Position numbers and translations under genes: made by a program. DNA of 64,000 nt, from positions 87,046-151,045 of the forward strand of contig NZ_AQWL01000006.1 in the NCBI RefSeq assembly GCF_000376425.1, written 5' to 3'. Under the pieces are notes generated by a model, which worked only from the letters and a program-made list of their open reading frames with translations, was not told the DNA's origin and did no database searches. Below are positions 1,783-28,299 of the stretch, one piece after another. Position 1 is the first letter of the stretch; each line of letters opens with the position of its first letter. This stretch comes from Thiobacillus denitrificans DSM 12475 (GTDB taxonomy: Bacteria; Pseudomonadota; Gammaproteobacteria; Burkholderiales; Thiobacillaceae).

Positions 1783-2139
1783 ATGTCTGAAGTAATGGAT
1801 TACAAAAGCCGCGTGAGCGATCCCGCCAGCCGCAAATTCGAGACCTTCTCCTATCTGCCCGCGATGACCAAGGACCAGATCAAGAAGCAGGTTGAATTCC
1901 TGGTGAAAAAAGGCTGGAACCCGGCTATCGAACATACCGAACCCACTCACCTGCAGGATTCCTATTGGTATATGTGGAAACTGCCGATGTTCGGCGAAAC
2001 TGATGTGGCGCGGATCCTGAGCGAAGCTGAAGCGTGTCACAAGGCCAATCCGGACAACCACGTCCGGCTGATCGGTTACAACAACTTCAACCAGTCGCAA
2101 GGCGCTTCCATGGTGATTTTCCGCGGCAAGACGGTTTAA
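1783..2139 (+). CDS. cbbS: Ribulose-1,5-bisphosphate carboxylase small subunit
   Basis: Small subunit of the L8S8 RuBisCO, 118 residues, 98 bp after cbbL and preceded by AAGGAAATTAA. The N-terminus has extra residues around VSDPASR before the conserved KFETFSYLP. This insertion is typical of the cytosolic IAq subclass and is absent from the roughly 110-residue carboxysomal IAc subunits. The core segments [10 protein letters not shown] and [12 protein letters not shown] are intact. A strong terminator follows at once, so cbbLS can be transcribed in excess over the downstream activase genes. Confidence 0.97.
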
Positions 2140-9667: not shown

Positions 9668-9668
9668 T

Positions 9669-11120: not shown

Positions 11121-11123
11121 GAC

Positions 11124-11786: not shown

Positions 11787-11787
11787 G

Positions 11788-12735: not shown

Positions 12736-14747
12736 CGTGTGAAAACCAGAAGAAAGATCAGGGTGGCGAAGCTGTAGATCAGGTACCACTGGATGCGGCC
12801 ATGCTGTAGTCGCCCGGCCTGCTCCGACAGCCAGCCGGTCACCCGTGCGATCGGTTCATAGAGAACGAACCAGAGCTTGTCCAGCGAGGCACCGCTGTAG
12901 CGCGGCTTGCGGTCGAAGGGATCGGGGGTTTCCCGCTCCACCCGCATGAAAACTTCGAAAATCTGCCGGATCGGCTGACCGAAGCCTTCGGCGCTGTCCT
13001 GCATGCGCGCATCCTGTTCCGGATAGCCGCAGTCCCACGGATCGCTGCGGCGCACCCGGCCGTGGTAGATGCGGCGTACCCACAGGATGGTCAGCAGCAG
13101 CACCGCCGCCACCACGGCGAAGAAGATCAGCGGCGCGTAGCTCGCGCGTTCCGCCGAGACCGGCGCCAGTATCAGCCAGTTGCCGTCGTTCACCAGCGTC
13201 TGCCCGGTCAGCAAGTACACCACCGGGGCGAGCCAGCCGATGACCTGGGCGGGGAACAGGCCCAGCAGCACGCAGCCGGCCGCCAGCCACAGCATGCCGA
13301 GGCGTTCCGGCCAGCCGGCCTCGTGCGCGTCATGCAGCGCTGGGTGGCGCGGCTGGCCGAGGAAGACGACGCCGTAGAACTTGACCATCACGTAGGCGGC
13401 GAGCGCCGCGGCCAGCGCCACGGTGGCCGCGGCCACCGGGATCACCATGTTGAGGTAGGGCTGGCTGAGCCCCGGAGTGAGCAGGAAGGCCTGCAACAGC
13501 AGCCATTCCGAGACGAAGCCGTTCAACGGCGGCAGGCCGGCGATGGCCAGCGCGCCGACCAGGGTCAGCCAGGCGGTCCACGGCATGAAGCGCATCAGGC
13601 CGCCCAGCTGGCCCATCTGGCGCGCGCCGGTGGCGTGCAGCACCGAGCCGGTGCCGACGAACAGCAGGCCCTTGAAGAAGGCGTGGTTGAGCGCGTGATA
13701 GAGCAGCGCGGTCAGCGTCAGCGCCGCCAGCGCACCCTTGCCGTCGGTGTAGAAAATCAGCGTGAGGCCGAACGCGGCGATGATCACGCCGATGTTCTCG
13801 ATCGACGACCAGGCCAGCAGGCGCTTCATGTCCGACTGCACCGCGGCGAAGATCACGCCGTACAGCGCAGTGATCAAACCCAGCGCCAGCGCCAGTGTGC
13901 CCCACCAACCGATCTGCACATTGAGCAGATCGAAGGTCACCCGCAACAGGCCATAGATGGCAGTCTTCAGCATCACCCCCGACATCAGTGCGGACACCGG
14001 CGAAGGCGCGGCCGGGTGCGCCTCCGGCAGCCACACGTGCATCGGCACCAGCCCTGCCTTGGCGCCGAAACCGAACAGCGCCAGCAGGTAGGCGGCCGAG
14101 GCCCAGAGCGGGGTCATCTCGGCCACGCGCATGGTGTCGAAGGTGTAGTCGCCGTGCCCGCCCTGCAGTACGCCGAAGGTCAGCAGCAGCGCCACCGCGC
14201 CGATGTGCGCGATCAGAAGATAGAGAAAGCCGGCGCGGCGGATTTCGGGAATCTTGTGGTCGGTGGTGACGAGAAAATAGGACGACAGCGCCATCACTTC
14301 CCACGCCACCATGAAGGCGTAGGCATCGTCGGCCAGCAGCACCGTGACCATGCCCGCCAGGAACAGGTGGTACCACAGAGCCAGTAGCGCGAGCGGGCCC
14401 GCGGCCATGCTGCGGAAATAGCCGGAGGCATACACGCTGACGCCGAATGCCGCCCCGCCCAGGAGCACCATGAAAAAAGCGGACAGCGCGTCCAGCCGCA
14501 AATGGAAGGGCAGGTCGGGCAGGCCGATGGGCAGCACGGCCGTGGACACGGGCCCGGTCATCCCGGCCACGCCCACTCCCGCAATGGCGAGCGCGCCGAG
14601 CGCGCCGAGCGGGAACACCAGCCGGCTCAGCAGCTGCTGCGCATCTTGCAGCAGCAGGGCGGCAAACCCCAGCGCCAGCCAGAACAACACGACGCCCCAG
14701 GCCCATTGGACCGGATTGGAGAAAAGCATAGGAAGGGTTTCCATCAT
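12732..14747 (-). CDS. HyfB/NuoL-like proton-translocating subunit
   Basis: 671 residues, first gene of the complex block. It is a large antiporter-family subunit with the expected charged residues: E in VAWEVMALSSYF, K in FGAKAGLVPMHVWLPEAH, K in SGVMLKTAIYGLLR and K in HAFFKGLLFVG. The C-terminal WDCGYPEQD segment is typical of HyfB rather than of NuoL. No NuoL-type lateral helix is obvious. It begins 175 bp after the SulP stop on the same strand, and no terminator separates them, so cotranscription with usp-sulP is likely. Confidence 0.88.
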   Translation of the reverse strand: MMETLPMLFSNPVQWAWGVVLFWLALGFAALLLQDAQQLLSRLVFPLGALGALAIAGVGVAGMTGPVSTAVLPIGLPDLPFHLRLDALSAFFMVLLGGAAFGVSVYASGYFRSMAAGPLALLALWYHLFLAGMVTVLLADDAYAFMVAWEVMALSSYFLVTTDHKIPEIRRAGFLYLLIAHIGAVALLLTFGVLQGGHGDYTFDTMRVAEMTPLWASAAYLLALFGFGAKAGLVPMHVWLPEAHPAAPSPVSALMSGVMLKTAIYGLLRVTFDLLNVQIGWWGTLALALGLITALYGVIFAAVQSDMKRLLAWSSIENIGVIIAAFGLTLIFYTDGKGALAALTLTALLYHALNHAFFKGLLFVGTGSVLHATGARQMGQLGGLMRFMPWTAWLTLVGALAIAGLPPLNGFVSEWLLLQAFLLTPGLSQPYLNMVIPVAAATVALAAALAAYVMVKFYGVVFLGQPRHPALHDAHEAGWPERLGMLWLAAGCVLLGLFPAQVIGWLAPVVYLLTGQTLVNDGNWLILAPVSAERASYAPLIFFAVVAAVLLLTILWVRRIYHGRVRRSDPWDCGYPEQDARMQDSAEGFGQPIRQIFEVFMRVERETPDPFDRKPRYSGASLDKLWFVLYEPIARVTGWLSEQAGRLQHGRIQWYLIYSFATLIFLLVFTR

Positions 14748-14922: not shown

Positions 14923-17046
14923 CTATCGTGCTGAAGGGATCAGGCAGAACAGATCGTCTGCTGCATTTTCGCCCAGCTGCTCGTAAATTGCAGTGATCGC
15001 CTGGTCTTCCGTGGCAAACAGATTGTTCTGGCCAATGACGTCGTACAGGCTGGTGGCGCGCATCACATCCAGTACCTGTCGTTTCAGGCCGCTGAACACC
15101 AGCGTGACACCGGTGCTGCGCAGGCGTTCGACCAGGTGATGGACGACTTCCTCGCCGGACGCGTCCAGCTGGTTGATGCCGTCGCCCACCACCAGTATGT
15201 ATCTGGCGTCGGGATGGTTGGCCACGGCTTCCAGTACCGCGTCTTCGAAGTAGGCGACGTTGGCGAAGTAGAGCGAGCCGTCGAAGCGGATCGCCACCAG
15301 ATGCTTGCTGGTGGGTAGATCGGGGTAGACCTTGAGGTCGCGCAGGGTGCCGTCGCTGTAGCGGCCGAGGATGGCGACGCGCGGCGACATCGTGCGGTAC
15401 AGGTACAGGCCGAGCGCCAGACCCGCGCCCACCATGATGCCGTTGTCGAGATGCGGCGCAAACGCAAGGGTGGCGATAAAGGTCGCCACGGCGGCGATGC
15501 CGTCGTGCTTGCTGGCGTGCCAGGCGTGCTTGACCGCCTTGAGATTCACCAGCCCGATCACCGCCATGATGATGATGGCAGCCAGCACCGCCTGCGGCAG
15601 GTGGTACAGCAGCGGCGTCAGAAACAGTAGCGTCAGCAGCACGAACAGCGCGGTAATGACCGAGCTCATGCCGGTTTTGGCGCCTGCATTCATGTTGACC
15701 GCGGAGCGCGAGAATGAGCCCGACACCGGAAACGCCTGGGTCAGGCTGCCCACCACGTTGGAAAGCCCCTGGCCGATCAATTCCTGATTGGGGTCGAGGC
15801 GCTGCCGGGTCTTGGCGGCGATGGCCTTGGCAATGGAAATGGCTTCCATGAAGCCCACCAGCGAGATGACCAGCGCAGTGGACAGCAGCGAGCCGAGGGC
15901 GTCCAGATTGAAATCGGGCATCTTCACGCTGGGCAGCCCTTCGGGGATCGCGCCCACCACTTCGCCGCCGCCCACCAGCTTGAAGTCGCTTGCAGTGAGC
16001 TTGCGCAGCCGGTAGCGCGTATCGTCCAGCGCCACGTCCTGCGGCGCCCGGTCCAGTGCATAAATGGCGAGGGTCGCGCCGTCCGCATCCACGCTGCGCA
16101 CGACTTGCAAATGTCGCAGCGCGGCTTTTTCCTTGTTGAAGGCATCTTCCGCGGCGCGGGCTTCAATGCGGGCCAGTTCCAGCTCGGCCGCCATCTGCAC
16201 CGTGCGAACGCTTTCTTCGCCCGCCGTTTTCTGCATGGACTTGAGCGCAGCGGATTTTTCCACGATCAAGGTATTGAGATCGTCCACCCGCCTGGCGGCC
16301 GCCATGCTTTGCTGCACCACCGCCAGCAATGCTGGGTCGGCGATCTGCTCGGGCTTGCCGGCCGCGTTTCTTTCGAAGCCGATCGACCATGACAGCAGCG
16401 TCGTCACTACCACCGCGATCAGCACACCGGGCAGCTTCGGCTTGTATTTCCTGATGCTCCACATGATGGCGATCGCCAGCACGCCCATCGCCAGCGTCGG
16501 CAGGTGGGTGTCGCCGATCAGCCTGAACACGCCGACGATGTCGTTGATGAAGTGCTCGCTGCGCCCCATCGGCACGCCGAACAGCTTGGATACCTGCGAC
16601 AGCCCGATGATCATCGCCGCCGCATTGGTAAAGCCGACGATGACCGGGTGCGACAGAAAGTTGACGATCACCCCCAGCTTGAACACGCCCAGCAGCAACT
16701 GCACGATGCCCACCAGCAGTGCCAGCATGATGGCCAGCGCGACAAACTGGTCCGACCCCGGCGTGGCGAGTACCGCCAGCGACGATGCGGTGAGCAGCGA
16801 TACCACCGCCACCGGCCCGGTGGCGAGCTGATTCGAACTGCCCCACAGTGCCGCCACCGCCACCGGCAGGAACGCCGCATACAGGCCGAAATAGGCGGGC
16901 ATCCCGGCCAGCTGCGCGTAGGCCATGGACTGCGGGATCAGCACCAGCGCCACGGTGATGCCCGCCAGGAAATCGGCCTTGAGGATGTCGCCCTTGAGGG
17001 GAAACCAGTGCAGGAACGGAAAGAATTTTTTCAGGGAAGCAGGCAT
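14923..17046 (-). CDS. SulP-family anion transporter with STAS domain and coiled-coil insertion (SulP1)
   Basis: 707 residues from the ATG at 17046, 26 bp after the stress-type gene. The SulP signature (IPQSMAYAQLAGMPAYFGLYAAF) and a C-terminal STAS domain (about 560-690) are clear. Unusually, a soluble insertion of about 140 residues (225-365) interrupts the membrane domain; residues 250-312 are alanine/glutamate/lysine-rich and look coiled-coil. The SulP at 22948 has the same insertion; the one at 26191 does not. SulP proteins carry bicarbonate, sulfate and other anions. Proximity to gamma-carbonic anhydrases and RuBisCO favours bicarbonate; a sulfur oxidiser could also use it for sulfate. 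Confidence 0.9.
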   Translation of the reverse strand: MPASLKKFFPFLHWFPLKGDILKADFLAGITVALVLIPQSMAYAQLAGMPAYFGLYAAFLPVAVAALWGSSNQLATGPVAVVSLLTASSLAVLATPGSDQFVALAIMLALLVGIVQLLLGVFKLGVIVNFLSHPVIVGFTNAAAMIIGLSQVSKLFGVPMGRSEHFINDIVGVFRLIGDTHLPTLAMGVLAIAIMWSIRKYKPKLPGVLIAVVVTTLLSWSIGFERNAAGKPEQIADPALLAVVQQSMAAARRVDDLNTLIVEKSAALKSMQKTAGEESVRTVQMAAELELARIEARAAEDAFNKEKAALRHLQVVRSVDADGATLAIYALDRAPQDVALDDTRYRLRKLTASDFKLVGGGEVVGAIPEGLPSVKMPDFNLDALGSLLSTALVISLVGFMEAISIAKAIAAKTRQRLDPNQELIGQGLSNVVGSLTQAFPVSGSFSRSAVNMNAGAKTGMSSVITALFVLLTLLFLTPLLYHLPQAVLAAIIIMAVIGLVNLKAVKHAWHASKHDGIAAVATFIATLAFAPHLDNGIMVGAGLALGLYLYRTMSPRVAILGRYSDGTLRDLKVYPDLPTSKHLVAIRFDGSLYFANVAYFEDAVLEAVANHPDARYILVVGDGINQLDASGEEVVHHLVERLRSTGVTLVFSGLKRQVLDVMRATSLYDVIGQNNLFATEDQAITAIYEQLGENAADDLFCLIPSAR

Positions 17047-17072
17047 GAGCGTGTTTTTTCTGTGGGCGGGGT

Positions 17073-17465
17073 TCAGTGCTTCTTGTCGTGCGCAGCGGCG
17101 GTCACCAGCGGACATTCCAGCCGTTTCCAGGGGTCGCTGGTGCGGTCCTGAGCCAGTGCCTCCCAGCCTTCGCGCGAGTCGATCACCAGCGCCGCGATAT
17201 GTTCGTGGGCATTGGCATAGTCCACCAGATCGCGCCGCCGCAGGCTGGGTTTCACCGCCAGGCTGAACGGCAAACCGGCTTCGCGCAGTGTTGCCAGAAA
17301 GCCGTCCAGCTCGGGCGGCGGCGTCTTGCCGGCAGCAATGACCTGGATTTCAAGATCGGCTTCAAGGCGGCGGCAAAGTTCGAGTGCGGAAGTCAGCAAG
17401 CGTGGCTCCACATGGCCTTCGCGCACGGCGAGGAGGACGGTTCGTTGTTTGCCGGGATGCGTCAT
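17073..17465 (-). CDS. Universal stress protein-like, SulP-linked (USP1)
   Basis: 130 residues with the alternating strand/helix pattern of the UspA fold (RTVLLAVREGH, LEIQVIAAG, AALVIDSREG, CPLVTAA). The ATP-binding G-x2-G-x9-G motif is not evident, so nucleotide binding is doubtful. It is the first gene of the minus-strand operon, directly after the sigma-54-type promoter and before SulP1. A second stress-type gene is fused in expression to the third SulP, suggesting that these proteins modulate SulP carriers. The role is inferred. Confidence 0.65.
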   Translation of the reverse strand: MTHPGKQRTVLLAVREGHVEPRLLTSALELCRRLEADLEIQVIAAGKTPPPELDGFLATLREAGLPFSLAVKPSLRRRDLVDYANAHEHIAALVIDSREGWEALAQDRTSDPWKRLECPLVTAAAHDKKH

Positions 17466-17496
17466 GGCCGAGCTTGAGTGATGGACAACCCGTTAT

Positions 17497-17513
17497 AGCA
17501 GCATCCGTGCCAG
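17497..17513 (-). promoter_or_regulatory. Sigma-54 (-24/-12) promoter of the usp-sulP-complex operon
   Basis: The minus strand reads CTGGCACGGATGCTGCT. This matches the sigma-54 consensus YTGGCACG-N4-TTGCW at nearly every position, with the exact GG-N10-GC spacing (GG at 17511-17510, GC at 17499-17498). Transcription would start near 17487, about 22 nt before the ATG at 17465. The divergent neighbour encodes an NtrC-type activator with an intact GAFTGA motif, which is what such a promoter needs. Confidence 0.8.
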
Positions 17514-17603
17514 TCCGGCGCTTTCATGCAAGGAATTGAATTAGCGCATGAAATTCCAGGCCGTGCGATTGCGTGCGGAAGCACGGGTGTTGCGTATCGA
17601 AAT

Positions 17604-17650
17604 GGTTAAAGCGCATTCTTTCCGGGTAGAAAGGTTAAATTTTGGTTAAA
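17604..17650. promoter_or_regulatory. Triple GGTTAAA motif, candidate activator site
   Basis: GGTTAAA occurs at 17604-17610, 17633-17639 and 17644-17650; the last two are 11 bp apart, one helical turn. They lie about 93-140 bp upstream of the -24 element, the normal place for an upstream activating sequence of an NtrC-type regulator. The surrounding DNA is AT-rich. A TTAACC core recurs upstream of the third SulP gene. Confidence 0.4.
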
Positions 17651-17687
17651 TCTTTGTTATTTATGCATTAATCTTAAAATTTTTCAG

Positions 17688-17728
17688 GATGTTGCAATGC
17701 GTGTATTTATATTGCATTTGGCAACATC
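17688..17728. promoter_or_regulatory. Inverted repeat upstream of the sensor-kinase gene
   Basis: GATGTTGCAATGC (17688-17700) faces GCATTTGGCAACATC (17714-17728). The outer eight bases GATGTTGC/GCAACATC are perfect. The dyad ends 18 bp before the kinase start codon and may be an operator, for example for autoregulation by the encoded two-component system. Confidence 0.5.
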
Positions 17729-17746
17729 AGATGGCATGCTGGCGCC

Positions 17747-19240
17747 ATGCATTCGCTGCGCCGCAAGATCACGCTCGGCTATTACGCGCTGGCCACCCTG
17801 ACCGTCGGCCTGTCTGTGTTCGCCTTTTTCGAGTTGCGGCTCATCGGCGACAAGGTCGTCGCGGGCGGCCACATTGCCGAATTCTTCGATGCCACCCTGG
17901 AAATCCGCCGCTTCGAGAAAAACATTTTTCTCTATCGGCAGGTGGAGGATCTGACCGAAAACCGGGCTTATATCCGGCAGGCACAGGCGCTGCTGCAGAA
18001 TCACCGCGCAGCTTTCGTCAGCTTCGCCGGCGCGCGCCAAACCGATGCGTTGGCACGTTCTTTGAGACGTTACGCCGCGCGCATGGAGGCCTACACGGCA
18101 GGCGATCCGGTCCCGGCCGCCGATCTGGAAAACGAAATCCGCCAGATCGGCAAGACGATGGTCAGCGCGGCCGAGGCGATCGCCCGCGCTGAACGGACAG
18201 ACTTGCAAGCCTCGCTGGCCCGGCATCGCCAGGTGCTGGCAGGCTCGATCGTGTTTCTGGCGCTGGCGGCGGTGGCGCTCGGGCTGCTGGTGTCGCGGCG
18301 CGTCGCGCGGCCGCTGCAGCGCCTGGAAGAGGACATGGCCGCGGTGGCCAGCGGCAGGCTGACCCGCCTGGAGCCGGTCTCGCCCGACCGCGAAATCGTT
18401 TCGCTTACCCGGGCCTTCAACCAGATGATGCGCGAACTGGAACTACGCCAGCAGCAACTGTTGCGCGCCGAGAAACTGGCCTCGCTCGGCACCCTGCTGT
18501 CAGGGGTGGCGCATGAACTCAACAATCCGCTGTCCAATATTTCGAGTTCCTGCCAGATCCTGCTGGAGGAGGGCGAGGCGACCGATCCCGTGCTGCGCGA
18601 CGAACTGCTGGCGGAAATCGACGCGCAGACGCTGCGCGCACGCAACATCGTGCGCTCGTTGCTGGACTTCGCGCGCGACCGCGAAATCCGCCGCGAAGTC
18701 CTGCCGCTTGCGCCACTGATCGAGGAAACCCTGCGTTTCGTCAAGGGCCAGGTGCCCAGCCGCGTCGCCGTGACGGTCGATATTCCGGCGGATCTGTGCG
18801 TGACCGGCGACCGGCAGCGATTGCAGCAGGTGTTTCTCAACCTCATCCGCAACGCCCTTGAGGCGGTGGACGCCGCCGGCCATGTGGCGCTTGTCGCCCG
18901 GTCGCGTCCGGCAGTGCGCGCAGCGCCGGATGGCAAAAACCGGTTTACCTTCGGCCATTGCGCCAGCAGTGGCAAGGTGGCCGACATCGCGGTGCGCGAC
19001 GACGGCCACGGCATCCCCGCCACCCTGCTGCCGCGCATCTTCGATCCCTTCCTCACCACCAAGGAAGTGGGCAAGGGGTCGGGACTGGGACTGTTCATTG
19101 CCTTCGAGATCGTCGAAGAACATGGCGGCTGCATTGCCGTGGAAAGCGAGCCCGGCACGGGAACGGTTTTCCATGTCTGCCTACCCGTGCAGGAAAACCC
19201 CTGCCCCCAAGGGGGCACCGAACAATCGGAGAACTCATGA
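17747..19240 (+). CDS. Membrane sensor histidine kinase, NtrB-like
   Basis: 497 residues. TM1 about 12-33, a periplasmic sensor region 34-163 with no named domain, TM2 about 165-184, a HAMP linker, then HisKA with the phosphorylation site in GVAHELNNPLSN (H256). The ATPase domain has N-box FLNLIRNALEAVD, G1 VRDDGHGIP and G2 GKGSGLGLFI. It is translationally coupled to the response regulator (ATGA). No Shine-Dalgarno is obvious before the ATG. Because it diverges from the usp-sulP-complex operon, it probably senses the state that operon corrects. The ligand is unknown. Confidence 0.9.
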   Translation: MHSLRRKITLGYYALATLTVGLSVFAFFELRLIGDKVVAGGHIAEFFDATLEIRRFEKNIFLYRQVEDLTENRAYIRQAQALLQNHRAAFVSFAGARQTDALARSLRRYAARMEAYTAGDPVPAADLENEIRQIGKTMVSAAEAIARAERTDLQASLARHRQVLAGSIVFLALAAVALGLLVSRRVARPLQRLEEDMAAVASGRLTRLEPVSPDREIVSLTRAFNQMMRELELRQQQLLRAEKLASLGTLLSGVAHELNNPLSNISSSCQILLEEGEATDPVLRDELLAEIDAQTLRARNIVRSLLDFARDREIRREVLPLAPLIEETLRFVKGQVPSRVAVTVDIPADLCVTGDRQRLQQVFLNLIRNALEAVDAAGHVALVARSRPAVRAAPDGKNRFTFGHCASSGKVADIAVRDDGHGIPATLLPRIFDPFLTTKEVGKGSGLGLFIAFEIVEEHGGCIAVESEPGTGTVFHVCLPVQENPCPQGGTEQSENS

Positions 19241-20595
19241 CCAGCGGCAAACTCCTGATCGTGGACGACGAAAAAGTCGCCATGAAAAACCTCGAGCACG
19301 TGATGAAAAAGGAGGGCTACGCGGTCACCGCCACCCAGAGCGGGAGCAACGCCCAGGCCCTGCTTGAAAAGCAGTCCTTTGACGTGGTGCTTACCGACCT
19401 GCGCATGGAGAAGGTGGACGGCATGCAGATACTCCGGCGCTGCCGCGAAAGCCACCCCGATACCGAAGTCATCCTGATCACCGGCTACGCCACCCTGGAA
19501 TCCGCCGTCGAGGCGATGAAGCGCGGCGCCTTCTACTACATCGCCAAACCCTACCGTCTGGACGAGGTGCGCAAGGTGGTGGCCGAAGCGCTGGAGAAAA
19601 TCCGCCTCAAGCGCGAAAACCGCAGCCTCAGGGAACAGGTGGAAAGCTACCAGGGCAAGGTGCGCATCCTCACCCAGGATCACCACATGCAACACCTGCT
19701 CGACATGGCGCGGCAGGTTGCGCCGACCGACTGCAACATCCTCATCACCGGCGAATCCGGCACCGGCAAGGAGCTGTTCGCCCGCTACCTGCACCATCAC
19801 AGCCGGCGCGCGTCCGGTCCTTTCGTGGCGGTGAATTGCGGCGCATTCAACGAGGAGCTGCTGGCCAACGAGCTGTTCGGTCACGTCAAGGGCGCCTTTA
19901 CCGGCGCCCACGCCGACAAGCAAGGGCTGCTGGAAGCGGCCAGCGGCGGCACGCTGTTTCTCGACGAGATCACCGAAATGTCGCCCGCCATGCAGGTCAA
20001 GTTGCTGCGCGTGATCCAGGAAAAGGAAGTGCTGCCCTTGGGTGCCACCCGGCCCATCGCGGTGGACGTGCGTTTCATCGCCGCCACCAATCGCGATGTG
20101 CAGGAAATGGTCAAGGCCGGCGGCTTCCGCCAGGATCTCTATTTCCGTCTCAACGTCGTCAACCTGCATATCCCCGCCTTGAGCGCCCGCAAGGAGGACG
20201 TGCCGCTGCTGGCCCAGCATTTCCTGCTCAAGCACGCCGCCCTGATGGGCAAGGATGTCGGCGAGCTTGCGCCCGACACCCTCGAACTGCTGCGCGCCTA
20301 CGACTTTCCCGGCAACGTGCGCGAACTGGAAAACATCGTCGAGCGCGGCGTCGCGCTCTCCAATGGCCACCGCATCGAACCCGCCCAGCTGCCGGAAGAC
20401 CTGCGCGAACTGTCGATCCGCACCTTCCGCAAAAAAGAGGGGCGCATCCCCAGCCTGGAAGAGCAGGAGCAGGACTACATCAACTGGGTGCTGCAAGAAG
20501 CCGGCGGCAACCAGACCCTTGCCGCGCAAATCCTCGGCATCGATCGTGTGTCCTTGTGGCGCAAGCTGAAACGGTACGAGGTGGAGAAAGGGTGA
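19237..20595 (+). CDS. NtrC-family sigma-54-dependent response regulator
   Basis: 452 residues. Receiver domain with phospho-acceptor D54 (VVLTDLRM); AAA+ domain with Walker A GESGTGKE (172-179), sigma-54-contacting GAFTGA (219-224) and Walker B GTLFLDE; C-terminal Fis-type helix-turn-helix (TLAAQILGIDRVSLWRKLKR). All parts needed for sigma-54 activation are present. Its start codon overlaps the kinase stop. The best visible target is the -24/-12 promoter across the divergent region. Confidence 0.94.
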   Translation: MTSGKLLIVDDEKVAMKNLEHVMKKEGYAVTATQSGSNAQALLEKQSFDVVLTDLRMEKVDGMQILRRCRESHPDTEVILITGYATLESAVEAMKRGAFYYIAKPYRLDEVRKVVAEALEKIRLKRENRSLREQVESYQGKVRILTQDHHMQHLLDMARQVAPTDCNILITGESGTGKELFARYLHHHSRRASGPFVAVNCGAFNEELLANELFGHVKGAFTGAHADKQGLLEAASGGTLFLDEITEMSPAMQVKLLRVIQEKEVLPLGATRPIAVDVRFIAATNRDVQEMVKAGGFRQDLYFRLNVVNLHIPALSARKEDVPLLAQHFLLKHAALMGKDVGELAPDTLELLRAYDFPGNVRELENIVERGVALSNGHRIEPAQLPEDLRELSIRTFRKKEGRIPSLEEQEQDYINWVLQEAGGNQTLAAQILGIDRVSLWRKLKRYEVEKG

Positions 20596-20608
20596 TGCGG
20601 GCAGAACC

Positions 20609-20641
20609 GGCAGGCGGCCGCTTTCGTGCCATCTGCCTGCC
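20609..20641. terminator. Stem-loop between convergent genes
   Basis: GGCAGGC (20609-20615) pairs with GCCTGCC (20635-20641) in the gap between the response regulator and the convergent peptidase gene. There is no T-tract; it is a plausible weak bidirectional terminator. Confidence 0.35.
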
Positions 20642-20677
20642 TTAACGGGGCGGGAGCAGGAGGCCAATCAGGTCGAC

Positions 20678-21682
20678 TCAGGCGCTTCCGGGCGTTTGTC
20701 GAACGGGGCAGGCGGGCGGCGGCAGGCAGTTTTCCGCGCCCGCTACCCGTTGCTCTTCCATTTCGTTCAGGGTAAGCGCGTACTCGTTGTTTTCGGGCGC
20801 GATCCGCTGGGCGCAGCGCGCCGCCATCCGGGCTGAACGGATGCATTGCTGCCTGGCCAAAGCGTAGGCAAGGTTGTTCCAGGCAGCGGCGGTGCCGGAC
20901 TCGATGCGCAGGGCACGGCGGAATGCCTGTTCGGCTTGCCGGGCGTGGCCGAGGGCGTAATCGGCGTTGCCCAGCCCGAGCCAGGCGACGGGATTGTCCG
21001 GCCATCGTTCGGTCGACGCCTGGTAGGCAGTACGGGCTTCCTCATGCATGCCGAGGCTTTCGAGAGCGCTTGCGGTTTCCAGGTAGGGTGTGGCCTGGGG
21101 CCGTGCCGGAAAGGCGCCGGGGGCGAGCACGACTATGCCCCATCGTGCGGCGCGGTCCCAGGTGTTCAGAAACACGCGCAAGGGCGTGATGCGCCTTGGC
21201 GCGGTGCCCGAGCGCAGGATGAGTTCCTGCCGCTCCAGGTCGTAGCCGATTGCCACCGCATAGTGCCAGCGCGGCAGCCAGTCCAGCCCCAGATTTTGCA
21301 GGACCAGCACGGGATGGCCGGCTGCAATTTCTGTCAGCAGGGCATCCAGTGCGGGCTCGATCGCCAGTGCCAGCAATCCCTGCCGGCGCGTGGCCGCCAC
21401 GATTTCCGCCTGCAGGCTGCCCTCGCGGGCGGGCAGGTAGACCTGGGGAACGAGCGCTTCGGGCGTGACGGCTTTGCCGCGCGCATTCAGCATCGTGGCC
21501 AGCGCGGCCGGCCCGCACTGGTAGCGTTCCTGGGGAAAGAAGGGGGTGGCGGCCAGTTCCACCCTGGCCGGGAGTTCGGCCAATCGCGTGTCCGGGATTG
21601 GTGTCCGATGGGCGCAGGCCGCAAGCAGGACACCCATGAATAGAACGCCCGCCAGAAGGCGGGCGCGGCAGGCATTCCTCAT
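20678..21682 (-). CDS. PA2778-family C39-like cysteine peptidase lipoprotein with TPR
   Basis: 334 residues. An N-terminal signal with lipobox (VLLAAC, modified Cys at about 23) predicts a membrane-anchored, periplasm-facing lipoprotein. The peptidase part has the active-site segment YQCGPAALATML and the histidine in PRWHYAVAIGYD, the C39-like arrangement. The C-terminal third (about 210-300) holds tetratricopeptide-like helices. It lies 10 bp after the PA2779-type gene on the same strand. Pairs of this kind occur in pseudomonads and other proteobacteria; I know of no established substrate. Confidence 0.82.
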   Translation of the reverse strand: MRNACRARLLAGVLFMGVLLAACAHRTPIPDTRLAELPARVELAATPFFPQERYQCGPAALATMLNARGKAVTPEALVPQVYLPAREGSLQAEIVAATRRQGLLALAIEPALDALLTEIAAGHPVLVLQNLGLDWLPRWHYAVAIGYDLERQELILRSGTAPRRITPLRVFLNTWDRAARWGIVVLAPGAFPARPQATPYLETASALESLGMHEEARTAYQASTERWPDNPVAWLGLGNADYALGHARQAEQAFRRALRIESGTAAAWNNLAYALARQQCIRSARMAARCAQRIAPENNEYALTLNEMEEQRVAGAENCLPPPACPVRQTPGSA

Positions 21683-21692
21683 CGAAACGGAC

Positions 21693-22088
21693 TTACTTGA
21701 TGGGATGCACGAAGGGGAAGATGTCGGTTACGCCGATGGCGTCGGTGATGATGAAGACGATGAAGATCAGCACAACAACGCCCAGCACGTCGCCGCCGGC
21801 AGGCAGTTCAGTGATGTGCTGATTGATCCGGGCGACTTCGGCATCGGTCAGGTTCGCCACTCGGTTCCTGGCGTCTTGAACGTCGACCCCTAGGGCAGAC
21901 AGCCGGTGCTGCAGGTCTTCCCGTTCCAGCAGGGATGCCAGCCGGTGACGATCCATCCTGCCCTGTTCGGCGGCCAGTACTTGGGCGGTGCCGACCATCC
22001 CGGCCTGGACCGGCGCAATCTGCGCGCCCAGAAACGAGGCGGCCAGCAACAGGGAAGCGAATTTCTTGATTGAGTGATGGAAACGCAT
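21693..22088 (-). CDS. PA2779-family membrane protein
   Basis: 131 residues from the ATG at 22088, eight bases after a perfect AGGAGG in the leader. It has a signal peptide (about 1-29, ending PVQAG), a helical middle with the family segment LGVDVQDARNRVANLTDAEV, then LPAGG at 95-99 followed by a hydrophobic helix (101-115). It is cotranscribed with the C39-like peptidase. C39 peptidases cut after double glycine, so the GG at 98-99 before the hydrophobic tail could be the cleavage site; this is inference. Confidence 0.82.
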   Translation of the reverse strand: MRFHHSIKKFASLLLAASFLGAQIAPVQAGMVGTAQVLAAEQGRMDRHRLASLLEREDLQHRLSALGVDVQDARNRVANLTDAEVARINQHITELPAGGDVLGVVVLIFIVFIITDAIGVTDIFPFVHPIK

Positions 22089-22224
22089 GGGGCCTCCTTG
22101 GCGAATTGGGCTCGTGGATGGATGGTGCAGACCCTGCCCGCAAGGCAGGCACCTTGTTGCAACATAGCACAGTCCCCATCGTTGCAAGGCCGGCCGGCGG
22201 GAACAACCTGGTGAAAAACTACAG

Positions 22225-22785
22225 CTAGAACTCGTTGCGGATGCGCTTGTAGCCCTTCACCAGTTCGTGGTTGGCCTGTGCCACGCTTTCCGAGAAATCG
22301 CTGACATCCGCCGTCACCCGCTCGATTCCGGCCAGATCCGCATTGGAGCGGATGTTGGCGGTCGAGGGGATGTAGAAGCGCTGCGGCACCTCGCAGCCTT
22401 CGACCACCGAGTTGTGGCGGATCACCGAATGGCTGCCGACCACGCAGTTGAACAGCACCGAGTTGAAGCCGACAAACACATGGTCGCCGACCGTGCACGG
22501 CCCATGCACGATGGAACGGTGCGCAATCGAGGTGCCGCGCCCGATGTTGACCCCGCCCCCCGCCTTGCAGTGAATCACCACCCCGTCCTGAATATTCGAA
22601 TCGGCGCCGATGACGATGGGCTCCATGTCGCCGTCGTCATCGACCTCGTCCGCGCGTATCACCGCATACGGGCCGATGAACACATTGGCTTCCACGACGA
22701 TCTTGCCGCAGAGGATGGCGGTGGGGTCGACGAAGGCGGTCTCGTGTACCTGGGGGATGTCTCCGTTGGGATTGCGACGAATCAT
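22225..22785 (-). CDS. Gamma-class carbonic anhydrase family protein (CA1)
   Basis: 186-residue left-handed beta-helix (hexapeptide repeat) protein of the CamH/CcmM-N type. The three zinc-ligand histidines are in place as H72 (VVIHCKAG), H89 and H94 (IAHRSIVHG), with the 17- and 5-residue spacing of CamH. The C-terminus is a helical tail. It is divergent from SulP2 (162 bp between starts) and has a close paralogue at the other end of SulP2. Interconversion of CO2 and bicarbonate next to an anion carrier is the likely role; activity of this subclass varies. Confidence 0.85.
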   Translation of the reverse strand: MIRRNPNGDIPQVHETAFVDPTAILCGKIVVEANVFIGPYAVIRADEVDDDGDMEPIVIGADSNIQDGVVIHCKAGGGVNIGRGTSIAHRSIVHGPCTVGDHVFVGFNSVLFNCVVGSHSVIRHNSVVEGCEVPQRFYIPSTANIRSNADLAGIERVTADVSDFSESVAQANHELVKGYKRIRNEF

Positions 22786-22875
22786 GCGTGGCCTCGATCG
22801 ATGTGCGGGCCGGAAACCGGCTTGCCCTGAATCCGCGGCGTGCGGGCGGGCCGGCGGCTTCCGGTACGTCGTGTC

Positions 22876-22924
22876 AAAATGTTAGAATATTACATTTTTC
22901 AACACTAATGTTGCTGTAAGCAAC
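22876..22924. promoter_or_regulatory. Dyads in the CA1/SulP2 divergent promoter
   Basis: This AT-rich region contains AAAATGT-N9-ACATTTT (22876-22898), enclosing a -10-like TAGAAT, and GTTGCT-GTA-AGCAAC (22910-22924). The second dyad shares the GTTGC/GCAAC half-site with the inverted repeat upstream of the sensor-kinase gene. No -24/-12 element is present here. Confidence 0.45.
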
Positions 22925-22947
22925 TAGTCAGCGTTCGGGGCGGCATC

Positions 22948-25122
22948 ATGTACGACAACAAATGGCTTGTACGGTTTTTTCCCTTTCTGGCCTGGTTTCC
23001 CGTCAATTCCATCGTCCTGCGCGGCGACATGATGGCCGGCATCACCGGCGCGCTGGTGCTGGTGCCGAAGGCGATGGCGTATGCTCAGCTGTCGGGGCTG
23101 CCGGTGTATTTCGGCCTGTATACGGCGTTCATCCCTGCGATCCTGGGAGCGTTGTGGGGATCTTCGCGGCAGCTGGCAACCGGCCCGGTGGCGATCGTGT
23201 CGCTGATGACGGCCGCGGCACTGGCGCCGCTGGCGATCCCGTTTTCCGAGGAGTACATCGGTCTCGCGCTGCTGCTGACGCTGATGGTCGGCGTCATCCA
23301 GTTCAGCCTGGGCGTGCTCAAGCTGGGCACCATCGTCAACTTCGTGTCGCATCCGGTGATTCTGGGCTTCATGAATGCGGCGGCCATCATCATCGCGCTC
23401 TCCCAGCTTGACCTGCTGCTGGGCATCCCCAAGGGCCGCAGCGATTCCTTCCTGGTGGATATCTGGGAAATGTTCACTTACCTGCCGCAGACCCATCTGC
23501 CCACGCTGGCGATGTCGGTGTTCGCGCTGGTGCTGATGCTGGGGATGAAGAAGATCCCGCTGCTGGCCAAGCCCAGCGTGCTGGTTGCGGTGGTGATCAC
23601 CACCCTGGTCAGCTTTGCGGTCGGCTTTGCGCACAAGACCAGCGGCGCGCCCGACACGATCGCCGACCCCGCCGCGCGCGAACTGGTGGCGAGCTACGCC
23701 CAGGCGCAGGCGCGCATCGACGACATCAAGGCCGATGTCACGGCGAAAACGGCCGCATTGCGGGTGCTGGAAAAGACGAACGACGCCCGCGCCGCGGCCG
23801 ACCTCAACTACCAGATCGACTTGCTGAATCTGGAGGCCTCCGGCTTCGAGCAGCAAAACAAGGAACGCCTGCAATACATCCGCAAGCTGGGTTTCGAGCG
23901 CGCCGACGCGCCTGAGGAGCAGTCGGCCATGCTGTATCTGCAAGGCGCCGTCCCCGACGGCGTGAAGACCGACGGCCAGCACTGGCACATCAAGAAAATC
24001 GAAAACGGCACGATGAACCTGACCGGCGGTGGCGACGTGGTCGGCAACATCCCGGCAGGCCTGCCGTCCTTCCGCGTGCCGGCGCTGTCGCTCGACGCCT
24101 TCATGCAGCTGTTTGCCGCCGCGCTGATCATTGCGCTGGTCGCTTTCATGGAAAGCATCTCGATGGCCAAGGCGTTGGCGGCAAAGACCAAGCAGCGACT
24201 CGATCCCAACCAGGAACTGATCGGCCAGGGCGTCGCCAACATGGGCGGCTCGTTCTTCCAGGCCTATCCGGCCACCGGTTCCTTCACCGGCTCGGTGATC
24301 AACCTGCAGGCGGGCGCGAAAACCGGCCTGGCCATGGTGTTCAACGGGGTGTTCGTCGCGATCACGCTGCTGTTTCTGACGCCCTTACTCTACCATCTGC
24401 CGAAGGCGACGCTGGGCGTCATCATCCTGCTGGCGGTCGCCGGCCTGCTCACCCCGGCCGCGATCAAGCATGCCTGGAAGGCCAGCAAGGCGGACGGCGC
24501 GGTGGCGATCGTCACCTTCTGCGTCACGCTGATCGCCGCCCCGCACCTGGACAAGGGCATCCTGATCGGCGCGGCGCTGGCGCTGGCGCTGTTCCTGTAC
24601 CGCACCATGAAACCGCGCGTCGCCCAGCTCGGCCGCTACGCCGACGGCACCCTGCGCGACGTCAATGTGAACCCGGGCCTGCCCACCAGCGAGCATGTCG
24701 TCGCCATGCGCTTCGACGGCCAGCTGTACTTCGCCAACGTCTCCTACTTCGAGGACACCATCCTCGAAGCGGTGGCCGAACATCCCAAGGCCCGCTACGT
24801 GCTGGTGGTGGGCGACGGCATCAACAACCTGGATGCCACCGGCGAGGAGGTCATCCAGCACCTCAACGAGCGCCTGCATGGAAGCGGCATCACCCTGGTG
24901 TTCTCCGGCCTCAAGAAACAGGTGCTCGACGTGATGCGCAACACCGGCCTGTTCGACGAGATCGGCCAGCAGCACATTTTCGCCAACGAGGACCAGGCGC
25001 TGGCGGCCATCTACGAATGGCTGGGCGAGACGGGCAGGGACGATCTATTCTGTCCGGTCAGCAAGCCGCAGCAGGAACAGCCGTCGTCCCTGCCCGCGCT
25101 TGAGCCGGGCATCGCGCGTTAG
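22948..25122 (+). CDS. SulP-family anion transporter with STAS domain and coiled-coil insertion (SulP2)
   Basis: 724 residues, paralogous to SulP1 over its whole length. The SulP core (VPKAMAYAQLSGLPVYFGLY), an insertion of about 135 residues at 230-365 with a coiled-coil-like stretch (247-315), and a C-terminal STAS domain are present. Both SulP1 and SulP2 share the segment GGGxVVGxIPxGLPS at the re-entry into the membrane. It is sandwiched between two gamma-carbonic anhydrases: CA1 divergent, CA2 convergent with stop codons overlapping by three to four bases. This neighbourhood argues for bicarbonate as substrate. Confidence 0.9.
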   Translation: MYDNKWLVRFFPFLAWFPVNSIVLRGDMMAGITGALVLVPKAMAYAQLSGLPVYFGLYTAFIPAILGALWGSSRQLATGPVAIVSLMTAAALAPLAIPFSEEYIGLALLLTLMVGVIQFSLGVLKLGTIVNFVSHPVILGFMNAAAIIIALSQLDLLLGIPKGRSDSFLVDIWEMFTYLPQTHLPTLAMSVFALVLMLGMKKIPLLAKPSVLVAVVITTLVSFAVGFAHKTSGAPDTIADPAARELVASYAQAQARIDDIKADVTAKTAALRVLEKTNDARAAADLNYQIDLLNLEASGFEQQNKERLQYIRKLGFERADAPEEQSAMLYLQGAVPDGVKTDGQHWHIKKIENGTMNLTGGGDVVGNIPAGLPSFRVPALSLDAFMQLFAAALIIALVAFMESISMAKALAAKTKQRLDPNQELIGQGVANMGGSFFQAYPATGSFTGSVINLQAGAKTGLAMVFNGVFVAITLLFLTPLLYHLPKATLGVIILLAVAGLLTPAAIKHAWKASKADGAVAIVTFCVTLIAAPHLDKGILIGAALALALFLYRTMKPRVAQLGRYADGTLRDVNVNPGLPTSEHVVAMRFDGQLYFANVSYFEDTILEAVAEHPKARYVLVVGDGINNLDATGEEVIQHLNERLHGSGITLVFSGLKKQVLDVMRNTGLFDEIGQQHIFANEDQALAAIYEWLGETGRDDLFCPVSKPQQEQPSSLPALEPGIAR

Positions 25123-25679
25123 AACTCGTTGCGGATGCGCTTGTAGCCCTTGACCAGCTCGTGGTTGGCCTGCGCCACGCTTTCTGAGAAATCGGCCGCA
25201 TCGGGAGTGACGCGTTCGATGCGGGCCAGCTCCTCGTCCGAGTGGATATTGCAGGTGGAGGGAATGTAGAAGCCGTCGGGCACGCTACAGCCTTCGACCA
25301 CCGAGTTGTGGCGCACCACCGAGCCTGCGCCCACCACGCAGTTGAACAGCACCGAATTGAAGCCGATGAAGACGCGGTCCCCCACCGCGCAGGGGCCATG
25401 TACGATGGAGCGGTGGGCGATCGACGTGTGTTCGCCGATCTCGACCCGGCCGCCTGCCTTGGAATGGATCACCACGCCATCCTGGATGTTCGAATGGGCG
25501 CCGATGACGATGGGTTCCATGTGGCCGTTGTCATCGACTTCGTCGGCACGGATCACCGCATAGGGGCCGATGAAGACATTCTCGCCGACGATGATGTGGC
25601 CGCAGAGGATGGCGGTAGGGTCGACGAAGGCGGTGTCGTGCACGACCGGCAGGTCGCCTCGGGGGTTGCGACGAATCAA
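25119..25679 (-). CDS. Gamma-class carbonic anhydrase family protein (CA2)
   Basis: 186 residues, a close paralogue of CA1 with the same length and the same ligands H72, H89 and H94. The 3' ends of the two genes are nearly identical at the DNA level, so this is a recent duplication or a converted pair in direct orientation. Its stop overlaps the convergent SulP2 stop. It lies upstream of the stress-type gene at 26194 only in map order; the two share a strand, and a separate promoter in the 50-bp gap or readthrough from SulP3-USP2 could drive it. Confidence 0.85.
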   Translation of the reverse strand: MIRRNPRGDLPVVHDTAFVDPTAILCGHIIVGENVFIGPYAVIRADEVDDNGHMEPIVIGAHSNIQDGVVIHSKAGGRVEIGEHTSIAHRSIVHGPCAVGDRVFIGFNSVLFNCVVGAGSVVRHNSVVEGCSVPDGFYIPSTCNIHSDEELARIERVTPDAADFSESVAQANHELVKGYKRIRNEF

Positions 25680-25729
25680 GGTAAATCCTTCCTGTGGATG
25701 GGCTGAAAAGTGGCGGGCAGGCGGCCTGC

Positions 25730-26194
25730 TCAGGCATGCCCCTGCGCCGGAGGGAAGAAAAAACCGGCCAGGCGTGCAAAGGCGCCGGTGCGATCGACCC
25801 GCATCATCTGCGGGCCTTCATTGCCGGTCCGGGCCGGCAGCATGCGGCGTGTCCGTCCGTCGCACACGATCATATCGGGACGCCAGCTGCGGATCAGCGC
25901 GGACAGGGCGGCGCGCGGCTCACCCCATATCACGGTGGCTCGCGCCCGGCCCAGGCCGTGCCGCAACAGGTCGTGGTCAAGCCGCTTCTGCTCGGCCGGC
26001 GCGAGGCGGGCGGCGCGCTCGTCGGGCAGATTGCCGGCAGGCCCATCCAGATCGAAGCCGGATCGGGTGTCCAGCACGCTCACTACCAGCAGTTCGATCT
26101 CTCCGGCCGCGGCGATCTCGCCGGCCCGGCGCAGCAAGGCCGATCCGCTGTGACCGTGGGTGAATGGAACCAGGATGCGTTGATGGGTTTTCAT
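25730..26194 (-). CDS. Universal stress protein family, coupled to SulP3 (USP2)
   Basis: 154 residues; start ATG overlaps the SulP3 stop (ATGA), so the two are translationally coupled. The fold is UspA-like: RILVPFTHGHSGSALLRRA, IELLVVSVLD, PDMIVCDGRT. The typical nucleotide loop is only partly recognisable. It is the second stress-type gene paired with a SulP gene in this window, though gene order is reversed relative to USP1-SulP1. CA2 follows 50 bp downstream on the same strand. A regulatory role on the carrier is inferred. Confidence 0.75.
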   Translation of the reverse strand: MKTHQRILVPFTHGHSGSALLRRAGEIAAAGEIELLVVSVLDTRSGFDLDGPAGNLPDERAARLAPAEQKRLDHDLLRHGLGRARATVIWGEPRAALSALIRSWRPDMIVCDGRTRRMLPARTGNEGPQMMRVDRTGAFARLAGFFFPPAQGHA

Positions 26195-28017
26195 GGCTGG
26201 ACTCCTGCGGGAATGAAGGGATGCGGGTGGCTGGCCGGCTCGACCTGCGCCGGCATGCATTCGCGGAAAACGCGCGCGCTGCAGGTGCGGCAGACATCGC
26301 GGTTCAGGTGGCGGTAGATTTCGGCGATGGCATCGGTCTTGGAATCGAACAGGTTGGCGCCGCCGATTGCTTTCAGGGCGCCGTTTTCCGCCAGCTGTTC
26401 CCGCACCCTGTCCTTGGCGCCGATGAGGTAGAGCCCGCCGCCCGTGCGGCACCGCCGCTGCGCTTCGCTGGCAAGGGCTTCGGCGCCGGCCATGTCGATG
26501 AAGTTGATGCCGTGCGCGATGATGGCCACGTGCTTCTGTTCGGGCTGCGCCAGATCCTGGGCAGCCAGTTTTTCGCGCACGTGCGCGGTGGCACCGAAGA
26601 ACAGCGAACCGTCGATGCGCACGAAGCGCAGCTGCGGACATTGCGGGGCGTGGGCGGCATCGGTGAACTTGCGTTTGCGGTTGTGCGGGTTGGGTGCGCG
26701 CACGTGCACCTGAGGCTTCGAGGTGCGCGCCAGATACAGCGAAAGCGACATCAGCACGCCGATGATGATGGCCTCTTCCAGCGTCAGGAACAGCGTCGCC
26801 GCGAAGGTGGCGGCCATGATGGCGAATTCGGAGCGATTGGTCTTTACCGTATGGGCGATTTCCTTGAAGTCGATCAGCCCCCAGGCCACCAGGAACAGAA
26901 TGCCGGCCATGGCCGCGTTGGGCAGGAAACGTGCCCACGGCGCCACCAGCAGCACCACCAGCAGCAGGAAGAAGCCCGCCATCATCGCCGCCAGTGGCGT
27001 CTTGGCGCCGGCGGCGTAGTTCACCCCGCTGCGGTTGAAGGAGCCGGTGGCGACGTAGCCGGAAAAGAACGCGCCGGCAATGTTCGACATCCCCTGGCCG
27101 ATGAATTCCTGGTTGCCATCGACGTGCTGGCCGGAGCGCGCCGCCAGCGCGCGGGCGATCGACACCGCCTCGGTCAGCGCCAGGAGCGTCACCGCCACCA
27201 CGCCGGAAGCGACCGCGCGGATGCTTTCGCCGTCCAGCGCCGGCGCCGACAGTGGCGGCAGGCTCGCCGGCAGCGCACCCACCGTGGACAGCTGCATTCC
27301 CTGCCAGGCGCTCAACGCCGCGGCCGCAGCCGAACCGCCCAGCATCGCCACGATCATGTAGGGCCACTTCGGCAGAAACTGTTTCACCGCGATACCCAGC
27401 ACCAGCGTCAACATGGCCACTGCCGTCACGCCGGGCTGCACCTGATCGAGCTGGCTGAACAGCGCACTCCAGGTGTCGCTGAAGGAGGATCCGCGCGCAA
27501 TCTCGAGGCCGAAGAAATGCTTCACCTGGTTGGTGGCGATCAGGATCGCCGCCCCGGCGGTGAACCCGGTCACCACCGAATGCGAGATGAAATTGACTAG
27601 CGTGCCCATGCGTGCCAGCCCCATCACCAGCTGGATAATCCCCACCAGGAATGTCAGTGTCAGCGCCAGGCTCACGTACTGTGCCGATCCCGGCTCGGCA
27701 TGCGGCGACAGCACCGAGAACAGCACGATCGAGGCCGCCGTGGTCGGCCCCGACACCAGGTGCCAGGAGGAACCGAACAGCGCCGCGATGATGGCCGGAA
27801 TCATCCCGGCATACAGCCCGTATTCCGGCGGCATGCCCGCAATGGTGGCAAACGCCACGCCCTGCGGCAGCGCCACCAGCGCGCCGGTCAGCCCGGCCAT
27901 CAAATCGTCGCGCAGGCTCTGCCGGTTGACGCGGTTGCGCCAGCGCAGGAAGGGCAGCAGACGCGGCCAGTCGAGGCGGAGGGGAGGGATGCCCAGGCGG
28001 GCAAGAGGAGTAGTCAT
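26191..28017 (-). CDS. SulP-family anion transporter with STAS domain, no insertion (SulP3)
   Basis: 608 residues with the standard SulP layout: a membrane domain starting at LPQGVAFATIAGMPPEYGLYAGM, then a C-terminal STAS domain (about 470-580). It lacks the long insertion of SulP1 and SulP2; the equivalent loop is about 30 residues. The STAS domain ends in a cysteine-containing tail (CRTCSARVFRECMPA), which is unusual. It is more distant from the other two carriers, so it may handle a different anion or affinity range. It is translationally coupled to USP2. Confidence 0.9.
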   Translation of the reverse strand: MTTPLARLGIPPLRLDWPRLLPFLRWRNRVNRQSLRDDLMAGLTGALVALPQGVAFATIAGMPPEYGLYAGMIPAIIAALFGSSWHLVSGPTTAASIVLFSVLSPHAEPGSAQYVSLALTLTFLVGIIQLVMGLARMGTLVNFISHSVVTGFTAGAAILIATNQVKHFFGLEIARGSSFSDTWSALFSQLDQVQPGVTAVAMLTLVLGIAVKQFLPKWPYMIVAMLGGSAAAAALSAWQGMQLSTVGALPASLPPLSAPALDGESIRAVASGVVAVTLLALTEAVSIARALAARSGQHVDGNQEFIGQGMSNIAGAFFSGYVATGSFNRSGVNYAAGAKTPLAAMMAGFFLLLVVLLVAPWARFLPNAAMAGILFLVAWGLIDFKEIAHTVKTNRSEFAIMAATFAATLFLTLEEAIIIGVLMSLSLYLARTSKPQVHVRAPNPHNRKRKFTDAAHAPQCPQLRFVRIDGSLFFGATAHVREKLAAQDLAQPEQKHVAIIAHGINFIDMAGAEALASEAQRRCRTGGGLYLIGAKDRVREQLAENGALKAIGGANLFDSKTDAIAEIYRHLNRDVCRTCSARVFRECMPAQVEPASHPHPFIPAGVQP

Positions 28018-28108: not shown

Positions 28109-28299
28109 GAGTGATGGCGTTGCCGGGCCGGGCGCCGCTGTTGTGAATTCGTGGTAGATGCCGATATTCCGTCGCCGCGCGCGCCGTCGACGCGCCCGCG
28201 TATCCCGGGCCGCCTTGTTTTGGTCATGTCGCGGGCGTGGCACGATCCATGCGTCGATGAGCGAACCATGAATTCATGGGACAACCGCAGGGACAAAAA

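Follow-up and report, generated by a model that had tools for sequence, protein, structure and literature searches.

The island and its hydrogenase-like complex

The window analyzed here, a 64,000-nucleotide stretch of Thiobacillus denitrificans DSM 12475 (positions 87046-151045 of contig C6, NZ_AQWL01000006.1; genome size 3.6 Mb), carries, near its genes for ribulose-1,5-bisphosphate carboxylase/oxygenase (RuBisCO), an island encoding three SulP carriers, two gamma-carbonic anhydrases, regulators and a complex that resembles hydrogenase 4, hyfBCEFGI. Parts were called with Pfam and NCBIfam models (Table 1). A preliminary description of the window had read them as a carbon-concentrating system built from SulP, gamma-carbonic anhydrase and an Ehr complex, and the layout on which it relied was borne out: three carriers lie within 13 kb, each with PF00916 and a STAS domain; both anhydrases have the hexapeptide fold and keep their zinc ligands; SulP1 lies 175 bp upstream of hyfB on the same strand (hyf operon 7511-14747, minus strand); and the cbb genes (290-5676) are indeed neighbors, SulP1 being 9.2 kb from the end of cbbO and 13.2 kb from that of cbbL. 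The names cbbQ and cbbO are ones that we assume from position. The two-component system described earlier is of the NtrC type and lies inside the island; a second, OmpR-type system lies just outside. Of the two stress-type proteins, that at 25730-26194 is a universal stress protein (Usp, PF00582), while that at 17073-17465 has no Pfam match and is Usp-like by eye and position.

HyfB and HyfF score above the cut-offs of curated models for hydrogenase 4. However, when HyfG is aligned with HycE, RVSGDTH stands against RVCGICG and NLSYSGP against DPCYSCT, so that both CxxC motifs are replaced, and both [NiFe] cysteine pairs are missing from HyfG in all 45 relatives tested as well. HyfI, aligned to MbhJ, keeps the four proximal-cluster cysteines, a pattern retained in 43 of 43 relatives tested. 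Of 51 loci, 44 have the full B-C-E-F-G-I series, and the remaining seven are cut by the end of the locus. Lacking both of these [NiFe] cysteine pairs, the complex belongs to the Ehr type: group-4-hydrogenase-like subunits without either CxxC pair, together with antiporter-like subunits and a NuoB-like subunit that has Fe-S cysteines. Such complexes are named Ehr in the available extracts of two papers, one reporting their function as unknown (PMC10284858), the other suspecting charge translocation (PMC6349859).

The annotation models assign HyfB and HyfF to hydrogenase 4 and describe the carriers as sulfate permeases, which would favor a working [NiFe] hydrogenase 4 that is linked to ordinary sulfate permeases by accident. 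The absence of the ligands from HyfG, in the window and in 45 of 45 relatives, contradicts the hydrogenase, and the directional synteny conserved across many genomes contradicts an accidental linkage; we therefore regard this explanation as extremely improbable.

Among the Ehr operons collected, those of L087 and L088, which come from a different class of the phylum, carry hyfB twice in succession, and in four loci a small gene that by eye encodes an XRE-type regulator is found about 105-120 bp upstream of the operon.

Table 1. Features of the island and its surroundings (positions in the window)
Feature	Position	Strand	Basis
cbbL, RuBisCO large subunit	290..1684	+	NF003252, 792 bits vs cut-off 438
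cbbS, RuBisCO small subunit	1795..2139	+	position 3' of cbbL; CcmM small-subunit-like part 20.6 bits, below cut-off
cbbQ	2363-3166	+	GvpN-type AAA match, below cut-off
cbbO-like	3304-5676	+	no NCBIfam match
hyfI, NuoB-like	7511..8044	-	PF01058; four proximal-cluster cysteines
hyfG, NuoC/D-like, without [NiFe] cysteines	8126..9667	-	PF00346 and PF00329
hyfF, antiporter-like membrane subunit	9669..11120	-	NF005045, 861.5 bits vs 543
hyfE, small membrane subunit	11124..11786	-	NF008556, 89 bits, below cut-off 136
hyfC, NuoH-like	11788..12735	-	PF00146
hyfB, antiporter-like membrane subunit	12732..14747	-	NF005086, 894.7 bits vs 667
SulP1 (SulP1cc), inserted domain between two membrane repeats	14923..17046	-	PF00916 in two pieces and STAS; AlphaFold models
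small Usp-like protein	17073..17465	-	Usp-like by eye and position; no Pfam match
sigma-54-like promoter element TGGCACGGATGCTGC	17498..17512	-	one mismatch; 31 bp before start of Usp-like gene
histidine kinase, NtrC-type system	17747-19240	+	Pfam; divergent from hyf operon
NtrC-type sigma-54 activator (response regulator)	19237-20595	+	Pfam; divergent from hyf operon
gamma-carbonic anhydrase 1	22225..22785	-	hexapeptide fold; Zn ligands kept
SulP2, insert of SulP1 kind	22948..25122	+	PF00916 and STAS; 55% identity to SulP1
gamma-carbonic anhydrase 2	25119..25679	-	hexapeptide fold; Zn ligands kept
universal stress protein	25730..26194	-	PF00582; overlaps end of SulP3
SulP3, without insert	26191..28017	-	PF00916 unbroken and STAS
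OmpR-type histidine kinase	28991-30250	-	just outside island
OmpR-type response regulator	30234-30941	-	just outside island

Gene order in relatives and the exchange of Ehr and DAB

In 101 genomes of the same family, we found hyfB in 46 (E 1e-60), gamma-carbonic anhydrase in 66 (1e-30), DabA in 34 and RuBisCO in 89. For these family counts, SulP1-type genes are the listed genes with at least 63% identity, four of which have no insert; SulP fragments and the insert-less SulPs (52-53%) of genomes G015 and G036 fall outside this set. Among the matches listed, 19 of the 49 SulP1-type genes lie within 1.5 kb of hyfB, every one of them upstream and on the same strand. Within 6 kb, 24 have hyfB and 11 have DabA, none has both, and 10 of the 11 near DabA are upstream of it on its strand. 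Seven of the 14 genes with neither partner within 6 kb are on cbb-bearing stretches (L055, L057, L064, L065, L066, L068, L069), and another of the 14 (L073) is accompanied by a DabB-like gene running to the contig end.

A gamma-carbonic anhydrase gene lies within 1.5 kb of 13 of the 46 hyfB genes, again always on its strand and upstream. L041 and L042 read SulP1-gammaCA-hyfB, and L040 reads SulP3-gammaCA-hyfB, with one small opposite-strand gene before hyfB. At least 13 of the 46 hyfB genes have RuBisCO genes no more than 20 kb away, a lower bound because many, not all, of the RuBisCO matches were used. Taken among the matches listed, 35 of the 46 hyfB genes have a SulP or gamma-carbonic anhydrase gene within 10 kb (37 if G015 and G036 are counted). 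Since gene order is conserved in relatives, the clustering goes beyond chance. A further, distant SulP (28% identity to SulP3) lies behind SulP1 in three loci (L037:11998-13719, L039:10440-12242, L057:9820-11568), in the first two between SulP1 and hyfB.

Where hyf is absent behind SulP1, a DabB-like gene and DabA often come next (PF10070 at E <1e-225 in all four candidates tested). An order-wide search that started from SulP1, not from hyf, gave a match at 1e-140 in 60 of 399 genomes; loci were examined for 40 of the 51 such genomes outside the family, and L212 and L213, whose best match was SulP2, are outside the counts. In the 21 extra-family loci with a SulP1 of at least 63% identity, the gene directly downstream is hyfB in ten and DabB in five, and no locus has both; as hyfB lies further downstream in three more (L191, L192, L197), SulP1 is joined to Ehr or DAB in 18 of 21. 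Two single-strand arrangements, SulP3-gammaCA-SulP1-DabB-DabA in L189 and histidine kinase-response regulator-SulP3-gammaCA-SulP1-hyfBCEFGI in L186, differ mainly by this partner.

In a tree of 77 SulP1-type proteins, built by a quick method and without rows that contain a stop or lie at the end of a locus, a group of 59 rows with support of 100 comprises 29 Ehr-linked, 16 DAB-linked and 14 other rows, the long branches lying outside this group; at least eight changes between Ehr and DAB are needed among the linked rows. DAB2 is described as a vectorial carbonic anhydrase driven by the proton-motive force (available part of PMC13144422). That a known CO2-capture complex repeatedly replaces Ehr behind SulP1 is what leads us to propose a carbon role for Ehr here, and it is the strongest argument for one. 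Synteny in relatives, set beforehand as a test, was thus found both within the family and in further families of its order, and the carbon interpretation, formerly based on proximity, is strengthened by conserved directional synteny with repeated exchange of DAB. Gamma-carbonic anhydrase also stands beside DAB operons (L183, L189), so it is tied to SulP and not to Ehr alone.

Several observations weigh against this interpretation, or limit its reach. Eleven of the 46 same-family hyfB genes have no listed SulP or gamma-carbonic anhydrase within 10 kb (nine if the insert-less SulPs of G015 and G036, directly upstream of hyfB, are counted), several of these hyfB genes being partial or at contig ends. 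None of the 18 SulP1-type genes below 63% identity has either partner directly downstream; within that group RuBisCO-type genes occur in L208, L214 and L215, and a DabA relative is nearby in L214-L216. Across the phylum, where hyfB is present in 62 of 398 genomes (1e-100), SulP is within 10 kb of it in two of 57 (the search covered 57 of 61 other hyfB-bearing genomes). Likewise, in the best 80 named Ehr loci, SulP is within 10 kb in 13 and gamma-carbonic anhydrase in four. Those with SulP belong to Thiobacillus (L097, L098, L109), Sulfuritalea (L127, L157), other Rhodocyclaceae and a few more, whereas Ehr operons of the Gallionella type and of Burkholderia mostly have none, the loci without SulP including Burkholderia and Variovorax. 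Because most Ehr operons elsewhere have no SulP, the carbon link is a trait of certain lineages and not of Ehr generally, and Ehr is not solely a carbon device.

The many genomes with Ehr and no SulP also speak for a reading in which the parts are merely co-induced, by alkaline pH, low CO2 or envelope stress, and are physically and energetically uncoupled, Ehr being a general ion pump for pH and ion balance. Usp and two-component genes within the cluster would fit this, and homeostasis of pH and CO2 is suggested for the hyf-carbonic anhydrase pair of Acidithiobacillus caldus in the accessible text of PMC3826726. However, the gene order is tight and directional, and the stand-in for Ehr behind SulP1 is DAB, which captures CO2 and is related to subunits of complex I; we consider co-induction of this kind unlikely.

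Carriers, carbonic anhydrases and regulators

All three carriers score above the cut-offs of PF00916, PF01740 and TIGR00815. SulP1 carries an insert (approximately 15949-16377) between the membrane repeats, and a comparable insert of about 130 residues marks its subfamily. With the curated BicA model NF050096, SulP1, SulP2 and SulP3 reach 144, 127 and 184 bits, against a cut-off of 880, and by this model are thus not BicA orthologues. Furthermore, SulP1 is closer to plant sulfate transporters than to BicA, and the solved structure closest to it is the plant sulfate transporter AtSULTR4;1.

These similarities favor the alternative of sulfate export by a sulfur oxidizer, already named in the preliminary description: SulP1-3 would release cytoplasmic sulfate, possibly in exchange for bicarbonate, with Ehr handling the accompanying ions. 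The genome has two aprA genes, and therefore sulfate would be made in the cytoplasm and have to leave it; near SulP1-type genes there is a Na_sulph_symp gene (PF00939) in four loci and a chromate transporter in nine. The animal carrier SLC26A1 is a sulfate/bicarbonate exchanger, and exchange of this kind, if it occurs, would unite waste export with carbon import. On the other hand, it is DAB, RuBisCO and carbonic anhydrase that recur as partners, aprA is on another contig, and no sulfur-oxidation gene was found among 11 of the 22 recurrent flanking clusters that were scanned with Pfam (ten clusters, two of them without a match, and one scanned separately), the other 11 being judged by eye. We hold this alternative to be rather unlikely. 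As to the chromate-transporter-family gene on the nine SulP1-type stretches (for example, L183:4376-5722), one Chr carrier is reported to transport bicarbonate in the available portion of PMC10880623.

For both gamma-carbonic anhydrases the best named models are CcmM and 'carbonic anhydrase' (Cam-type), below whose cut-offs they fall, and a structure search with the first returned Cam-type structures at the top. None of H72, H89, H94, R44, D46, E47, N64, Q66, D67 and N172 varies in any of 11 sequences compared; by Cam numbering we take them to be residues of the metal and active site. As the zinc histidines and neighboring catalytic residues are kept, both proteins are predicted carbonic anhydrases. 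In the genome as a whole, searches yielded no beta-carbonic anhydrase match and no further gamma-carbonic anhydrase of the same type (E 1e-30; alpha-carbonic anhydrase was not sought), no DabA (PF10070, E 1e-20), and no bacterial microcompartment shell protein (PF00936), hence no sign of a carboxysome. A cytoplasmic carbonic anhydrase lets an accumulated pool of inorganic carbon leak away as CO2. With no shell protein found, the earlier term 'carbon-concentrating' is therefore too strong. A second gene for a RuBisCO large subunit is outside the window, at 71089-71982 of the same contig, about 16 kb before cbbL.

Upstream of the Usp-SulP1-hyf operon, of which the small Usp-like gene is probably the first gene, there is a sigma-54-like -24/-12 element, and similar elements are found in relatives. 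In the scan for such elements as a whole, matches were no commoner than chance. A relative of the Usp-like gene precedes SulP1 in 19 of 44 genes scanned, the window included (18 distinct, as L099 repeats L042), and in all 19 the best sigma-54-like element scores at least 18 of 21.5 (at least 20 in 14), at 31 to 256 bp from the start; without a Usp-like gene in front, five of 25 reach 18 and none reaches 20. A histidine kinase and NtrC-type regulator pair also stands beside SulP1 in many relatives. The pair in the window is the obvious candidate activator of the operon. Relatives of the OmpR-type pair occur near SulP3 in some loci. In the stretch 28238-28962, a gene for a PEP-CTERM protein also has a sigma-54-like element in front (28238-28252).

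In the window the gene for the universal stress protein overlaps the end of SulP3, and in a relative (L056:16388-18979) a STAS-bearing SulP is fused to Usp domains, in two stretches; Usp apparently partners SulP3 in a regulatory role. Two genes inside the island are off its theme, one for a C39-peptidase/TPR protein and one for a DUF6627 protein (20678-22088). Farther away, a single open reading frame (42924-44096) begins as a fatty-acid desaturase (PF00487) and ends as an ISL3-type transposase (PF01610), possibly an insertion sequence remnant fused to the desaturase.

A candidate inorganic-carbon uptake module

In our judgment, the island is fairly likely to be a module for uptake of dissolved inorganic carbon by an autotroph, in which Ehr takes the place of DAB. 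SulP1, and probably SulP2 and SulP3 too, would carry bicarbonate inward; the gamma-carbonic anhydrases would interconvert bicarbonate and CO2 in the cytoplasm and so supply RuBisCO; and HyfBCEFGI would do the energy-coupling job that DAB does in the sister loci, either by using or building up an ion gradient that powers SulP1 or by energizing CO2 hydration jointly with a gamma-carbonic anhydrase. The NtrC-type system may switch on the Usp-SulP1-hyf operon from the sigma-54-like promoter, although its target and signal, like the substrate, direction and energy coupling of transport, are things that we infer.

Of the known systems, the DAB/DAC systems of Halothiobacillus and Hydrogenovibrio are similar in their complex-I-type antiporter subunits and, in relatives of the window, in the same SulP1 preceding DabB and DabA; they differ in that the present genome has no PF10070 match and its operon includes NuoB-, NuoC/D- and NuoH-like subunits and one Fe-S motif. 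With other Ehr operons the hyf operon shares the B-C-E-F-G-I order, the absence of [NiFe] ligands and the proximal Fe-S cysteines, although most operons outside these lineages have no adjoining SulP or gamma-carbonic anhydrase. Carbon dioxide uptake by NDH-1MS/Cup and the gamma-carbonic anhydrases of mitochondrial complex I both combine complex-I architecture with CO2 hydration or gamma-carbonic anhydrase, and among the hits of the structure search with gamma-carbonic anhydrase 1 a CAG1 chain shares entry 9f5x with the 49 kDa chain of complex I. Here, gamma-carbonic anhydrase and Ehr are associated by gene neighborhood.

In other sulfur-oxidizing autotrophs parts of the arrangement recur. The can2-sulP cluster of Acidithiobacillus ferrooxidans combines SulP with a carbonic anhydrase, and the can2 transcript drops at high CO2 (PMC6458275), while in A. 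caldus hyf adjoins a beta-carbonic anhydrase (PMC3826726). However, in Acidithiobacillus the enzyme is of the beta and not the gamma type, and the available parts of these two papers do not report SulP and a hyf complex together. Thiomicrospira pelophila, which we liken by gene setting, has a SulP adjoining the RuBisCO genes on the carboxysome side that accumulates inorganic carbon in Escherichia coli; this is, by contrast, a carboxysome organism, the accessible text makes no mention of Ehr, and a second SulP of this species failed to rescue E. coli, which counts against the carbon reading (PMC12628692). We recognized no earlier description of SulP joined with Ehr in the open-licence literature (most subscription papers and all preprints lie outside it).

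More tentatively, and as a possibility short of our main proposal, Ehr may here be a third inorganic-carbon pump derived from complex I, beside cyanobacterial NDH-1MS and DAB: coupled to redox or ions, working with a gamma-carbonic anhydrase and a dedicated SulP with a periplasmic hairpin domain, and, serving as a plug-in energy module, exchanged for DAB on many occasions in evolution. The exchange also draws attention to a SulP subfamily, recognizable by its insert of some 130 residues, that the annotation model labels sulfate permease. Two questions thus become testable together, namely the function of Ehr and the inorganic-carbon supply of autotrophic sulfur oxidizers where searches reveal no carboxysome, beta-carbonic anhydrase or DAB, and the repeated exchange of Ehr and DAB behind one SulP clade offers a clean experimental handle on both.

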